A stretch of DNA of 37,296 bases from an uncultured Bacteroidota bacterium. Its GTDB lineage: Bacteria; Bacteroidota; Bacteroidia; Bacteroidales; CG2-30-32-10. Each line of letters opens with the position of its first letter. Positions within the stretch are counted from its first letter, which is position 1. Positions 4,244 through 16,919 of this stretch are shown here, one piece after another. The notes beneath the pieces were generated by a model. That model saw only the letters and a program-made list of their open reading frames with translations. It was not told where the DNA came from and did no database searches. The DNA lies in contig CAISZK010000269.1 of the NCBI GenBank assembly GCA_903889915.1, forward strand, positions 1-37,296. Direction: 5' to 3'. A program made the position numbers and the translations under genes.

Positions 4244-5116
4244 ATGATCGTCCTGATGTTGATTTGGGGTAGCTCCTACATTTTGATGAAAAGAGGACTT
4301 GAATCTTTTTCTGCAATGCAACTGGGGGCATTAAGAATTTCAATTGCTTTTCTTGTATTGTTACCATTTGCAATAGTCAGGATCAGAAAAGTCAAAAAAG
4401 GGAAACTCTATATTTTTGCTTTGGCAGGATTACTGGGAAACGGAATACCGGCATATTTATTTGCTGAGGCACAAACCGGCATTGACAGCCAGATTGCAGG
4501 GATACTAAATTCGGTAGCACCTTTGTTTACTCTGCTAACCGGGGTGCTTTTTTTTGGAGTACGCACAAAATGGTTCAATATTGCAGGCGTTTTTATTGGT
4601 CTTGCCGGCGCCATAGGGCTTTTATCGGCTGATTCCAGCGACACTTTTAATAACAATATGAGTAAGGGAATTTTCATAATCATCGCTACCATTCTTTATG
4701 CAACAAATATCAATGTTGTAAAAAAATATCTGAAAGATACTGACCCTATAACTATCACCTGTGTTTCCTTCGTTTTTATAGGCATACCTTCATTGATCTA
4801 TCTTTTGGCTGGTACGGATTTTATACCCCGTATAACTGTTGAACCCGGTGCACTGAGAAGCCTTGGTTTTATTACTATCCTTGCTGTGGTAGGTACTGCC
4901 TTAACAGGATTCATTTATAACTACCTGATCAAAATTTCGTCTGTCCTTTTTGTTGCTTCAGTTACTTACGTGATACCAATTGTTGCAATTTTGTGGGGTA
5001 TGAGTGATGGCGAACCATTTTTTGTGGAATATTTTATCTGGATAGCTGTGATATTTTTCGGAGTTTTTATGGTGAATAAAGAAAAATCAGTAAAAGTTAT
5101 TGATGGCCATTTATAG
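4244..5116 (+). CDS. DMT superfamily EamA-type transporter
   Basis: About 290 residues with ten predicted membrane helices in two EamA repeats. The first contains LIWGSSYILMKRGL, usual for the start of helix 1, and PLFTLLTGVLFFG; the second ends WGMSDGEPFFVEYFIWIAVIFFGVFMVNKEK. Members export amino acids, metabolites or drugs from the cytoplasm; the substrate cannot be told from sequence. The first ATG is used here because a -7 element lies inside the longer frame opening at a TTG at 4172. Family members often have a few more residues before LIWGSS, so a non-ATG start around 4202-4205 is possible. It stands alone, and no convincing terminator follows. Confidence 0.85.
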   Translation: MIVLMLIWGSSYILMKRGLESFSAMQLGALRISIAFLVLLPFAIVRIRKVKKGKLYIFALAGLLGNGIPAYLFAEAQTGIDSQIAGILNSVAPLFTLLTGVLFFGVRTKWFNIAGVFIGLAGAIGLLSADSSDTFNNNMSKGIFIIIATILYATNINVVKKYLKDTDPITITCVSFVFIGIPSLIYLLAGTDFIPRITVEPGALRSLGFITILAVVGTALTGFIYNYLIKISSVLFVASVTYVIPIVAILWGMSDGEPFFVEYFIWIAVIFFGVFMVNKEKSVKVIDGHL

Positions 5117-5131
5117 CCATGATGATCACTT

Positions 5132-5204
5132 AAATGATGCGATGCAAATGGCCTGAAGAGTATGGCACGAAACAAATGACACGAAGTAAATGACAATTAA
5201 TGAC
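5132..5204 (+). repeat. Degenerate 14-bp tandem repeat in intergenic region
   Basis: Four consecutive 14-bp units start at 5132, 5146, 5160 and 5174, and a partial fifth at 5188. They share the pattern AAATGRCNCGAARN (for example AAATGACACGAAGT). The same motif occurs in reverse complement between rpsD and rpsK. No coding function. Confidence 0.75.
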
Positions 5205-5221
5205 TTTTTTTTAAAAAAACA

Positions 5222-5251
5222 TTTGAATAATTGAAATTTTTAATAACTTTG
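5222..5251 (+). promoter_or_regulatory. Promoter of rplU-rpmA
   Basis: TTTG (5222-5225) and TAACTTTG (5244-5251) are separated by 18 bases, a very good match to the Bacteroidota primary-sigma promoter. Transcription would start near 5258, giving a leader of about 48 bases. Confidence 0.8.
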
Positions 5252-5305
5252 CACCCCCAAATAATTTTAGGATTGGGTTTAAATTAATTATAAAAAACCA
5301 ACACA

Positions 5306-5704
5306 ATGTACGCGATAGTTGATATAGCAGGACAGCAATTCAAGGTTGAACAGGATCAGAAAGTGATTGTTCACCGCCTTGATGGAGAAGTCGGCGCAAA
5401 AGTTGAATTTGATAATGTAATGCTGATAGATAACGATGGTAAGATCGTAGTAGGTCAACCTTTTGTTGAAGGAGCTAAAGTTACCGGAACAATTATTTCA
5501 CATCTTAAAGGAGACAAAGTTCTTATTTTTAAGAAAAAAAGAAGAAAAGGTTATCAGAAAGCAAGCGGTCACCGCCAGTTTTTGACAAAGATTTTAATCG
5601 AGAGCGTTGCTGCAAAAGCTGCCAAAACAAAGAAAGCAAAAGCTGAAGTTGTGGCTGAAACAGCAGAACCCAAGGTTACAGAAACAGAAAACAAAGTAGA
5701 TTAA
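5306..5704 (+). CDS. rplU: 50S ribosomal protein L21
   Basis: 132 residues. The L21 fold covers about 1-103 ([16 protein letters not shown] at the start, then [16 protein letters not shown] near its end). A tail of about 29 residues rich in Lys, Ala, Glu and Val follows, absent from E. coli L21 (103 residues). L21 binds 23S rRNA in the large subunit. First gene of a two-gene operon with rpmA, 20 bases apart. The start is fixed by the conserved N-terminus. The leader can pair TTGGGTTT (5273-5280) with AAACCAA (5295-5301) directly before the ATG. Confidence 0.97.
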
Positions 5705-8017: not shown

Positions 8018-9988
8018 ATGAAATTTCAAAGTAATTATATTGAAACGGTGAATAGGAGATTGGGCAAAATGATGAATAATTTTCCCTTAGCTCGTTTCCC
8101 TTTTCGCTTGTTTATTACTTTAATTTTCACAACCAATATTTTTCTTCAAAAAAGGACTTTTCATTTTAAATCTGCTTTAGCTTTTTTCTTGCTGATATTT
8201 GGCATCAATGCAACGTCCACAGCACAGGTTGATTCAACCGATGATCTTTTGGCTGCCCAATATTTTCAGGCGAAAGATTATGATAAGGCTGTAGTTCTTT
8301 ATGAAAAACTTTTCAGTAAAAAACAGGAATACATTTATTACAACCCCTACCTTGAATGTCTTATTCAGCAAAAAGATTACAAGAAAGCTGAGAAGATGAT
8401 CAAAAAACAAATAAGATTACATCCGCTGGTTGCACAATACTCAGTTGATCTGGGTTATCTTTATCTCTCCGAAGGTGAACAAAAAGAGTCAAAAGAGCAG
8501 TTTGATCTGCTGATCAAAATTGTTCCCAAAGATAAACAGTCAGTGATTGATCTTGCCAATGCATTCCTGCTTCGTGATGAAACCGATTATGCCATTCAAA
8601 CTTATTTGAAAGCACGCAAAGAGATGAAAGGAGAATATCCCTTCAATCTCGAACTGGCAGATATTTATAACGAACTGTCGGAGTATGATAAGATGATGGA
8701 TGAGTATATCAGCCTTATTGATTTCAGTGATTTTTATCTTGATGAAGTGGAGGGATTATTACAAACAATAATTACAGAGGAAAAAGACACCAAAAAAAGC
8801 ACAGCATTGAAAAATGTTCTTCTGCTAAGGATTAAAGATAGCCCTGATAACGACCTTTATTCGGAATTGCTTTTGTGGTATTCCACGCAAATGAAAGATT
8901 TCGAAACCGCTTTGGTGCAGGCCAAGGCGCTTGACAGAAGAAAAAAAGAAGATGGCAAAAGGGTTTTCAATATTGCCAGGCTTGCAACTTCAAATGAATA
9001 TTATGATGTTGCTATAAGCGCTTATCAGTACATCATTGATAAGGGAGCAGAAAGTTATTATTACCTGAATAGCAAGATTGAAATTCTTGATGTAAAATAT
9101 CTGAAGATCACAACAACTCTTACTTATACAAAACAAGAACTCGTTTCGCTTGAGAAAGAATATATTTCAGCTCTTGCTGAATTTGGAAAGACTTCTTCGT
9201 CCATTCCCTTAATGACCAATCTTGCACATCTGCAAGCTTTCTATCTCGATAGTTCGGCTGCTGCTACAAAGCTGCTTTATGAAGCGTTGGATATTAAAAC
9301 AGCAACACCGATACTTCTTGCAAAATGTAAACTTGAATTGGCAGATATACTGCTCATGACAGGTGAAGTATGGGAAGCTACATTGCTATATTCACAGGTT
9401 GATAAGGATTTTAAAGATGAACCAATAGGATCATTGGCGAAATTTAAAAATGCAAAATTGTCGTACTACATTGGAGAATTTGAATGGGCAAAGGCACAAT
9501 TGGATGTTCTTAAAGCAGCAACTTCGAAACTTATTGCCAATGATGCAATGGATCTTTCACTTCTGATAAGTGATAATTCAGATATGGATAGTTCCTATGA
9601 TGCGCTGGCAATTTATGCAAGAGCCGACCTTTGGGAATTCAGGAACAAATATGATATTGCATTGAAAACACTGGACACTCTTTTTGTGAAGTACAAGTAT
9701 CACACAATATTTGATGAGGCCTATTACAAGAAAGCTGAAATTTATATCAGGAAAGGATTGAATGATTCAGCGGTTGTTTACTATAAAAAAATATTTACAG
9801 AGTATCCCTACGATATACTGGCTGATGATGCCATGTACAAACTTGCCGTTCTTTATGAGGATGTTTATAAAGATAAGACGAAGGCGATGGATATGTATGA
9901 AAAATTAATGACGATTTATCCCGGAAGTACCTACGTTGTTGAGGCAAGAAAGAAATTCAGGAAACTACGAGGCGATGTGCTGAATTAA
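8018..9988 (+). CDS. Tetratricopeptide-repeat protein, exported or membrane-anchored
   Basis: 656 residues made of degenerate TPR helices: clear units near 80-190 (AAQYFQAKDYDKAVVLYEKL) and near 560-645 (ADDAMYKLAVLYEDVYKDKT), the latter resembling the outer-membrane-assembly or cell-division type of TPR. The N-terminus is unusual. A hydrophobic stretch (about 30-42) precedes a second, signal-peptide-like one (about 52-69, ending STAQ). Starts at 8069 or 8072 are also possible, but no ATG, GTG or TTG lies just before the second stretch. A scaffold role in the envelope is inferred; no catalytic motif is visible. Converges on the pyruvate kinase gene. Confidence 0.85.
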   Translation: MKFQSNYIETVNRRLGKMMNNFPLARFPFRLFITLIFTTNIFLQKRTFHFKSALAFFLLIFGINATSTAQVDSTDDLLAAQYFQAKDYDKAVVLYEKLFSKKQEYIYYNPYLECLIQQKDYKKAEKMIKKQIRLHPLVAQYSVDLGYLYLSEGEQKESKEQFDLLIKIVPKDKQSVIDLANAFLLRDETDYAIQTYLKARKEMKGEYPFNLELADIYNELSEYDKMMDEYISLIDFSDFYLDEVEGLLQTIITEEKDTKKSTALKNVLLLRIKDSPDNDLYSELLLWYSTQMKDFETALVQAKALDRRKKEDGKRVFNIARLATSNEYYDVAISAYQYIIDKGAESYYYLNSKIEILDVKYLKITTTLTYTKQELVSLEKEYISALAEFGKTSSSIPLMTNLAHLQAFYLDSSAAATKLLYEALDIKTATPILLAKCKLELADILLMTGEVWEATLLYSQVDKDFKDEPIGSLAKFKNAKLSYYIGEFEWAKAQLDVLKAATSKLIANDAMDLSLLISDNSDMDSSYDALAIYARADLWEFRNKYDIALKTLDTLFVKYKYHTIFDEAYYKKAEIYIRKGLNDSAVVYYKKIFTEYPYDILADDAMYKLAVLYEDVYKDKTKAMDMYEKLMTIYPGSTYVVEARKKFRKLRGDVLN

Positions 9989-15647: not shown

Positions 15648-15941
15648 TTGTAAAAATTGTTTAAAGATTAAATAAATTGAAAGTTCACTCAATGAGATTT
15701 AAGATTTTGTTCAATGTAAAAGGTTTGCTAATCTATTGACCCATGACAAATGACTATTGGTTTATTCTTTTTCAAAAGTTATTAGGTTTTAAATTTTTAG
15801 ATTGTAATTTAGCTGCCTAAATTCTTTTAATGAATTTTCAAAACACAATTTCATTTTCGAGGAAAAACTCTCTCACAAAAGTGGTGAGGAACAATATAAA
15901 TTACACATCAAATCTCATTGGCAGCAATAATAATAAAGGCG

Positions 15942-16018
15942 TTGGCAAATTATCAAAAACAGGGTCGTTTCCCCACTTTTATTCCTCAGCGAAGAGCTTT
16001 GCTTTTGGCAAATTATCA
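15942..16018 (+). repeat. 14-bp direct repeat, copies 63 bp apart
   Basis: TTGGCAAATTATCA occurs exactly at 15942-15955 and 16005-16018. The 63-bp offset is three times the 21-bp period of the palindromic array that follows, which suggests the same repeat structure has decayed upstream. Confidence 0.7.
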
Positions 16019-16059
16019 GTAAATGAGCCGTCAAGGAATAATTACCTTGAGATTTCGAT

Positions 16060-16333
16060 ACTTTTCGCCCGGGCGAGAAGTGTTTTCGCCCAGGCGAGAA
16101 TACTTTTCGGGTCAATTTTGAGACTTGTTTCGGGTACCCGACAATACTTCTCATCCCAGTTGCAGACTTTTCGCCAAGGCGAGAAGTATTGTCACCAAGG
16201 CGAAAAGTGTTCTCGCCTTGGCGAGACTCCTAAAACACTCAATTTATTTAGAATTTTGTTGAGGCGACAAGGTTTCTCGCCCGGGCGACAAGTGTTCTCG
16301 CCCATTCGAGAAGTCTCGACATTGAGGCGAAAT
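16060..16333 (+). repeat. Array of degenerate 21-bp palindromic units
   Basis: About thirteen 21-bp units. Each ideal unit is a left arm TTYTCGCC, two central bases and a right arm GGCGARAA plus linker. Good palindromes are centred near 16070, 16091, 16135, 16176, 16197, 16218, 16282 and 16303, at steps of 21 bp or close multiples (41, 44, 64). Some have perfect 12-bp cores (TCGCCCGGGCGA at 16065 and 16277; TCGGGTACCCGA at 16130). Intermediate units are decayed. Arms can pair inside a unit or between neighbours, where GGCGAGAA-GTG-TTTTCGCC makes a three-base-loop hairpin. It is not CRISPR: no unique spacers of constant length. Confidence 0.85.
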
Positions 16334-16373
16334 ACGAACTCAGCGCTTTGATTTTACTTAAAAAATATGTTCA

Positions 16374-16919
16374 ATGAAGCAATTGATTACTTTTATTTTT
16401 ACACTTATTTCTCTAGGTTTATTTGGACAATCGCCTGCAATTTCGCATAAAATTTTTAAAGTTACTGAATACAATATCGGAGGTTCTGTTAGTCGTGAGG
16501 CTTTTGATACAATCCCTATTGATACCCAAAAGATCAATCTTGCCTTCTATAAACTGCATTTTTTTATTCCACATTACCTTCCTCAAAGTTTTATTGATAC
16601 CACACATAAAAAGGTTACGATCACCGTTTGGCGTGACATCAATGAGGTTAAAGACTTTAAAGATAATTGGAAGCATGAATATACTTATGACAGCCTGTCG
16701 CGGGTAGTCAGATATTCTTATTCGGGATGCGTTATTTGCTCAGATATGGCATACAATTATTACGTGACTTACAACGCATACGGGGAGGTTGCAAAAATCA
16801 CCAACTTTATAGGGTCTCATGATAGCTACCAAATTCAATACAATATCAAAGGCGATGTTATTCAGTTGGATTATTTGCGCTCGGGCAATCCGGAGAAACA
16901 AATAAAACTATTGAAATAG
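16374..16919 (+). CDS. Small secreted protein of unknown function
   Basis: 181 residues. A signal peptide (about 1-19, MKQLITFIFTLISLGLFGQ) indicates export to the periplasm or beyond. The C-terminal half contains YDSLSRVVRYSYSG, YVTYNAYGEVAKI and IQYNIKGDVIQLDY, which resemble the spacing of YD/RHS-type beta repeats, but with too few copies to name a family. Two cysteines in GCVICSD are close enough to form a disulfide or bind metal. No T9SS sorting domain. Located between the palindromic array and a hairpin. I do not recognise it. Confidence 0.75.
   Translation: MKQLITFIFTLISLGLFGQSPAISHKIFKVTEYNIGGSVSREAFDTIPIDTQKINLAFYKLHFFIPHYLPQSFIDTTHKKVTITVWRDINEVKDFKDNWKHEYTYDSLSRVVRYSYSGCVICSDMAYNYYVTYNAYGEVAKITNFIGSHDSYQIQYNIKGDVIQLDYLRSGNPEKQIKLLK

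Follow-up and report, generated by a model that had tools for sequence, protein, structure and literature searches.

A 21-bp palindrome array in the right half of a dispersed element, probably a decaying minisatellite, in an uncultured Bacteroidota genome

Within the window, the whole 37,296-nucleotide stretch of DNA analyzed here, an array of short palindromes at a 21-bp period lies just ahead of a small gene and is crossed by an open reading frame. This raises the question of whether the array serves that gene, encodes protein, acts as RNA, or belongs to something that recurs elsewhere in the genome. The features of the locus are as follows, the other copies being those on contigs C220 and C408.

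15808 to 16057, + strand: leader-like left part, without a 21-bp period; about 65-83% identity per 63-column block in the C220/C408 alignment, with one 1-nt indel
15830 to 16351, + strand: 173-aa reading frame, probably not a gene
16058 to 16333, no strand assigned: palindrome array of 21-bp period, some 8 of its 13 slots holding a clear dyad; found in both other copies
16062 to 16100, no strand assigned: two neighboring clear units, TTTTCGCCCGGGCGAGAA and TTTTCGCCCAGGCGAGAA
16127 to 16144, no strand assigned: variant dyad with another arm, TTTCGGGTACCCGA; the best-conserved palindrome across all three copies
16168 to 16227, no strand assigned: three adjoining units, centered at 16176.5, 16197.5, and 16218.5
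16274 to 16312, no strand assigned: two adjoining units, centered at 16282.5 and 16303.5
16334 to 16370, + strand: tail-like right end; the window copy gradually loses its homology with the other two near 16365
16374 to 16919, + strand: 181-aa gene with a signal-peptide-like start, outside the element; the other copies are flanked by different genes

The array and the dispersed element that carries it

The 276 bp of the array hold 10 dyad centers with arms at least 7/9 complementary, against 0.79 expected, a count that none of 1,000 dinucleotide shuffles of 16058-16333 matched. Identity at an offset of 21 bp is 0.45 versus 0.25, a value also reached by 0/1000 dinucleotide shuffles. The arms TTYTCGCC and GGCGARAA, reported in an earlier note on this DNA, were found around clear palindrome centers at 16070.5, 16091.5, 16135.5, 16176.5, 16197.5, 16218.5, 16282.5, and 16303.5. 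Successive clear centers are 21, 44, 41, 21, 21, 64, and 21 bp apart, which indicates that about 8 of 13 slots of 21 bp are occupied and that the register slips (by +2, -1, and +1 bp). The thirteen or so units counted previously are therefore correct as slots, but only about eight of them contain a clear dyad. TRF splits the array into three 21-bp arrays, at 16058-16109, 16174-16226, and 16263-16303. The central two bases differ among units, as the earlier note had held in describing cores that vary while symmetry is kept; however, these bases are mostly not self-complementary (CA, AA, TT), CG being the exception. Within the intact blocks, further dyads sit midway between the main ones, giving a dyad each 10.5 bp, because each unit is nearly self-complementary and the joints between units are consequently palindromic as well. 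Dyads are also frequent at 4981-5340 of the window, but that stretch is simply AT-rich.

A search of the organism's own genome with the region, carried out on an incomplete assembly, returned two extra copies, one at C220:3843-4428 (77% identity) and one on the opposite strand at C408:3626-4151 (70% identity). Absence of the array from the rest of the genome had been named in the earlier note as part of what would refute its reading; the array is present at both of these further places. The three copies align over about 15808 to 16370, and the array is the right (3') half of a dispersed element of about 560 bp. There are no indels between the window and C220 copies across 516 nt, and the C408 copy has gained one base and lost exactly 42 nt, equal to two units. 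The flanks of the three copies are unrelated: judged from their sequences, the neighbors of the window copy are probably a 2-hydroxyacid dehydrogenase-like gene and a gene for a small secreted protein, those of the C220 copy putative glycosyltransferase-like and small membrane protein genes, and a predicted LexA-like regulator gene lies near the C408 copy. The leader holds a 27-bp direct repeat (78%; 15942-15968 and 16005-16031) with a spacing of 63 bp, or 3 x 21, and is otherwise without 21-bp self-similarity.

Candidate subterminal pairs in the window family are GCCTCAAT/ATTGAGGC and GACTTTTC/GAAAAGTC, the ungapped inverted-repeat search being equalled by 262/301 shuffles. With the element as DNA query, the own genome gave matches to the three copies only and no related autonomous transposon. 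The element was absent from the nearest genomes searched, where matches to its AT-rich left end in G003 and G015 were not elements. Phage and plasmid records and viral contigs contained no DNA or protein match to it, and a virus or plasmid origin was rejected on that ground. The arms are not a motif common across bacteria either: the exact array pattern had only seven scattered matches, in unrelated phyla, and arm matches with one mismatch across the class occurred singly at scattered places and, outside the own genome, were about as frequent as those of a reversed control pattern.

Coding capacity, pairing, and RNA structure

The 173-aa frame is open in the window and one other copy, which differ by no indel over 516 nt, and a neutral simulation gave a P value of 0.006 for a stop-free frame, meaning that its lack of stops is unusual. 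In the third copy (C408) it is open for 132 codons, with a frameshift and a stop. These observations would fit a fast-evolving protein of 130-174 residues; however, dN/dS is 0.8-1.2 in every copy pair, the changes per codon position (41/40/33) show no bias, and Pfam, NCBIfam, PHROGs, tblastn, and HMM searches found no relatives of the frame product. The frame thus shows no purifying selection and is probably not a gene. A protein gene was rejected on the basis of dN/dS, codon positions, families, tblastn, and HMM searches, and we consider a fast-evolving product very unlikely. By the same tests the element has no transposase or other coding capacity. Inspection of the sequence indicates that the array half of the frame is open because the palindrome unit itself is stop-free in the frames. 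Since a 21-bp period keeps frames open, caution is needed when annotating open reading frames through such arrays.

The earlier note had also proposed that symmetry, and not sequence, is under selection. Across the three copies compensatory changes were found in only two pairs, with slid controls giving 0-3, and Watson-Crick pairing is lower in the more diverged copies. The window array looks like a decaying relic, and the proposal is not supported here; it gains support for the wider class of arrays through covariation in a further element family, family B, described below.

If the element were transcribed, the array could fold into linked hairpins or a single long stem and might, for example, influence how stable an mRNA is or work as a small RNA. 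The folding energy lies far under that of shuffles on both strands (z of -7.9 and -8.2 in the window and of -6.4 and -3.2 in the copies), and the element ends are able to pair, GCCTCAAT with ATTGAGGC. Folding on both strands is, however, to be expected of any palindrome array, and the consensus-structure covariation term is unfavorable (+4.59). No known RNA was found, Rfam yielding nothing above threshold. Furthermore, the dyads lack the excess of G.T over A.C mismatches that a strand bias would give, with 16 G.T and 20 A.C in the window family and 24 and 26 in family B. These near-equal counts favor a role at the DNA level over one in a single RNA strand and speak against the hairpin chain suggested previously, and we regard a structured RNA as improbable.

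A class of intergenic 21-bp arrays and its element families

In a census by TRF, made on a sample of 970 kb of the own genome, arrays other than heptanucleotide ones cluster at periods of 21, 42, and 63 bp. About 28 arrays in these 970 kb have a 21-bp base period, and their sequences differ. Elsewhere, base-21 arrays number seven in G639, which belongs to a different family of the order, and four in G003, which is in the same family; none were seen in 151 kb of G004 or in 273 kb of other relatives. All base-21 arrays are intergenic, in tandem (15), divergent (10), and convergent (5) gaps, with no preferred gene orientation around them. Their arms vary (GGAATGNNCATTCC, TTTCGATATCGAAA, TCCGATATCGGA, AAGTTGCAACTT, and others), and higher-order periods of 42, 63, 84, and 105 occur. 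Dyads exceed the column-permutation null at p<=0.05 in 18/39 base-21 arrays versus 2/13 with other periods (Fisher p, 0.057), a count that overstates independence because several arrays are homologous. Within arrays, 6/9 double changes are complementary versus one third in controls, which is suggestive only. Two other candidate hallmarks were rejected: intrinsic curvature through 10.5-bp A/T phasing showed no excess over column permutation (2/40 arrays below 0.1), and a register-specific lack of indels did not set the class apart (25/40 base-21 arrays indel-free versus 23/45 and 17/24 in other classes).

The array at L198:17851-18064 is a 63-bp higher-order array with two half-site types, its units being mixed GTAACG/CGAAAC, self-paired GTAACG/CGTTAC (type 1), and self-paired GTTTCC/CGAAAC (type 2). 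The own genome also has many intergenic 7-bp arrays (GTTGGAT, ACTATTG, TTGACCA), a class distinct from the 21-bp dyad arrays, with examples at L098:10694-10857, L094:1523-1598, and L110:4620-4680. Tandem arrays lie at or beside contig ends (L105:1, L112:1, L113:1, L174:1, L177:1, L192:12511-12704), the one in L105 starting at a piece boundary and not at a contig end. Such repeats, which occupy several contig ends of this assembly, probably break the own and related assemblies, making the census an undercount.

Comparison of flanks was used to sort the arrays into element families, and a leader-array-tail layout was found in the window family, the GTAC family, and family B. Three copies make up the GTAC family, each flanked on either side by about 70-80 bp of conserved sequence. 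Family B comprises six copies plus fragments, and the inner 90 nt of its leader are nearly invariant; the C201 and C29 copies, and likewise two C230 copies, look like segmental duplicates because they share longer flanks. The pair TGTTGAATAATT/AATTATTCAACA adjoins the family B array and is not terminal.

Between copies of family B, as many as 11 of the 21 bases of the consensus unit are changed, while the period is constant at 21 and the best dyad lies 8 bp from the leader end in 6/6 copies, beating its own null at p<=0.06 in 4/6. Across 44 distinct units, the dyad cells pair in 72% of cases versus 66% in shuffled and 41-49% in slid controls; pair-keeping double changes occur in 35 cells versus 24.7 shuffled and at most 10 slid; and the covariation score is 0.253 versus 0.171 shuffled and at most 0.107 slid. 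None of 500 shuffles reached these three values. The remaining two measures of the covariation test were not above shuffles and the relatedness of units inflates the rest, so that the family B result is support and not proof.

In L219-L226, the reverse strand of the family B leader reads by eye as a similar short peptide (FLTNEVVLDALRGFGFKACEEGRIVRFLIK-like) in several copies; this could be the remnant of a gene or a coincidence. A long collagen-like run of the Gly-X-Thr type, ACAGGTCCNACAGG..., follows a family B fragment downstream, at about 1300-1929 of L222 (C404).

Possible origins and related repeats

We consider it probable that a non-coding dispersed element of about 560 bp, composed of leader, 21-bp dyad array, and tail, has this array as its minisatellite core and is now decaying. 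The element would have spread long ago to at least three intergenic places of the genome, presumably by a transposase acting in trans, and then decayed, with the array growing and turning over through slippage or unequal exchange. In the better-kept families, a dimeric DNA-binding protein sitting at every second helical turn might hold the register at 21 bp and preserve the dyad as the bases themselves change; taken alone, this binding step is tentative and rather unlikely. Dispersal, layout, the common 21-bp period, and the absence of amino-acid constraint are direct observations, and the element reading is further favored by three copies that have unrelated flanks and differ by either no indel or a unit-sized 42-nt deletion plus one base. 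The further base-21 arrays in this and two other genomes of the order, their dyads, the recurrence of the layout in the GTAC family and family B, the covariation in family B, and the published layout of BrickBuilt (below) favor it as well. Against it stand the absence of a convincing terminal inverted repeat in the window family, the lack of a related transposon with the same ends in the own genome, the lack of a compensatory excess in the window copies, a frame more stop-free than neutral (P value, 0.006), and the segmental duplicates among the family B copies.

Slippage and hairpin-primed template switching could by themselves make and homogenize such arrays, with no function and no binding protein. 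This purely mutational account, which is a real possibility at somewhat less than an even chance, agrees with units homogenized per copy, with the higher-order periods, and with the change of unit number in C408, but it leaves unexplained the 21-bp period common to unrelated families and the dyad covariation of family B. The two-turn period in unrelated families, together with the family B dyad, suggests either a dimeric DNA-binding factor or amplification that depends on helical phase. That several unrelated families keep the period and the dyad with sequence left free because a dimeric factor, host- or element-borne, reads spacing and symmetry, or co-evolves with each array, is an unlikely version of this. 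A cooperative operator array local to the secreted-protein gene at 16374 would fit both its position, 41 bp upstream of that gene, and a two-turn spacing suited to cooperative dimers; since the other copies lie beside unrelated genes and the class occurs in tandem, divergent, and convergent gaps alike, such an operator is very unlikely.

A single odd array thus becomes part of a testable class, that of intergenic 21-bp dyad minisatellites in leader-tail elements of some Bacteroidota-type genomes, and the class is more interesting than the single array. Should such arrays preserve period and symmetry while letting the sequence go, in line with what family B suggests, this would point to a new binding factor or a new mechanism of amplification.

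Previously no named repeat class was thought to fit, but BrickBuilt-type minisatellite MITEs of Porphyromonas gingivalis share the layout. BrickBuilt consists of a leader, 23-nt tandem repeats, and a tail, and is an intergenic element of 19 copies with predicted stem-loops and promoter activity (Klein et al. 2015, PMC4596501). Like the elements here, it is strictly intergenic and non-coding, with imperfect units, copy-number variation, long predicted stem-loops, and several copies per genome. In contrast, BrickBuilt is one family with one unit type of 23 bp, whereas several families with different units of 21 bp are found here; its terminal inverted repeats match an insertion sequence, where the window family has candidate subterminal pairs; and identity between copies is lower here. 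Because its unit is 21 bp and not 23 nt, the element is not filed as BrickBuilt itself. A BrickBuilt-like kind was thus already known, and the 21-bp form in several families appears to be new.

The 464/PgRS elements of P. gingivalis, with 41-nt internal tandem repeats (PMC4596501), are by description also alike in being dispersed and in having an internal array near four helical turns, to be compared with the 42-bp higher-order units here. REP/BIME sequences with RAYT transposases are likewise clustered intergenic palindromes (PMC3733652). Unlike these, the unit here carries no GTAG or CGTC tag on inspection, and it forms a tandem 21-bp array inside a longer element. Plasmid iterons are direct repeats about two helical turns apart that are bound cooperatively; the present array, by contrast, does not seem to lie at an origin, and arrays of its class occupy many chromosomal places with a different sequence at each. 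In another genome of the order, G022 (L155), one of the other relatives sampled, two 23-bp arrays at 8231-8298 and 9647-9736 have a near-palindromic ACAAGCTTGT core and the same period as BrickBuilt.
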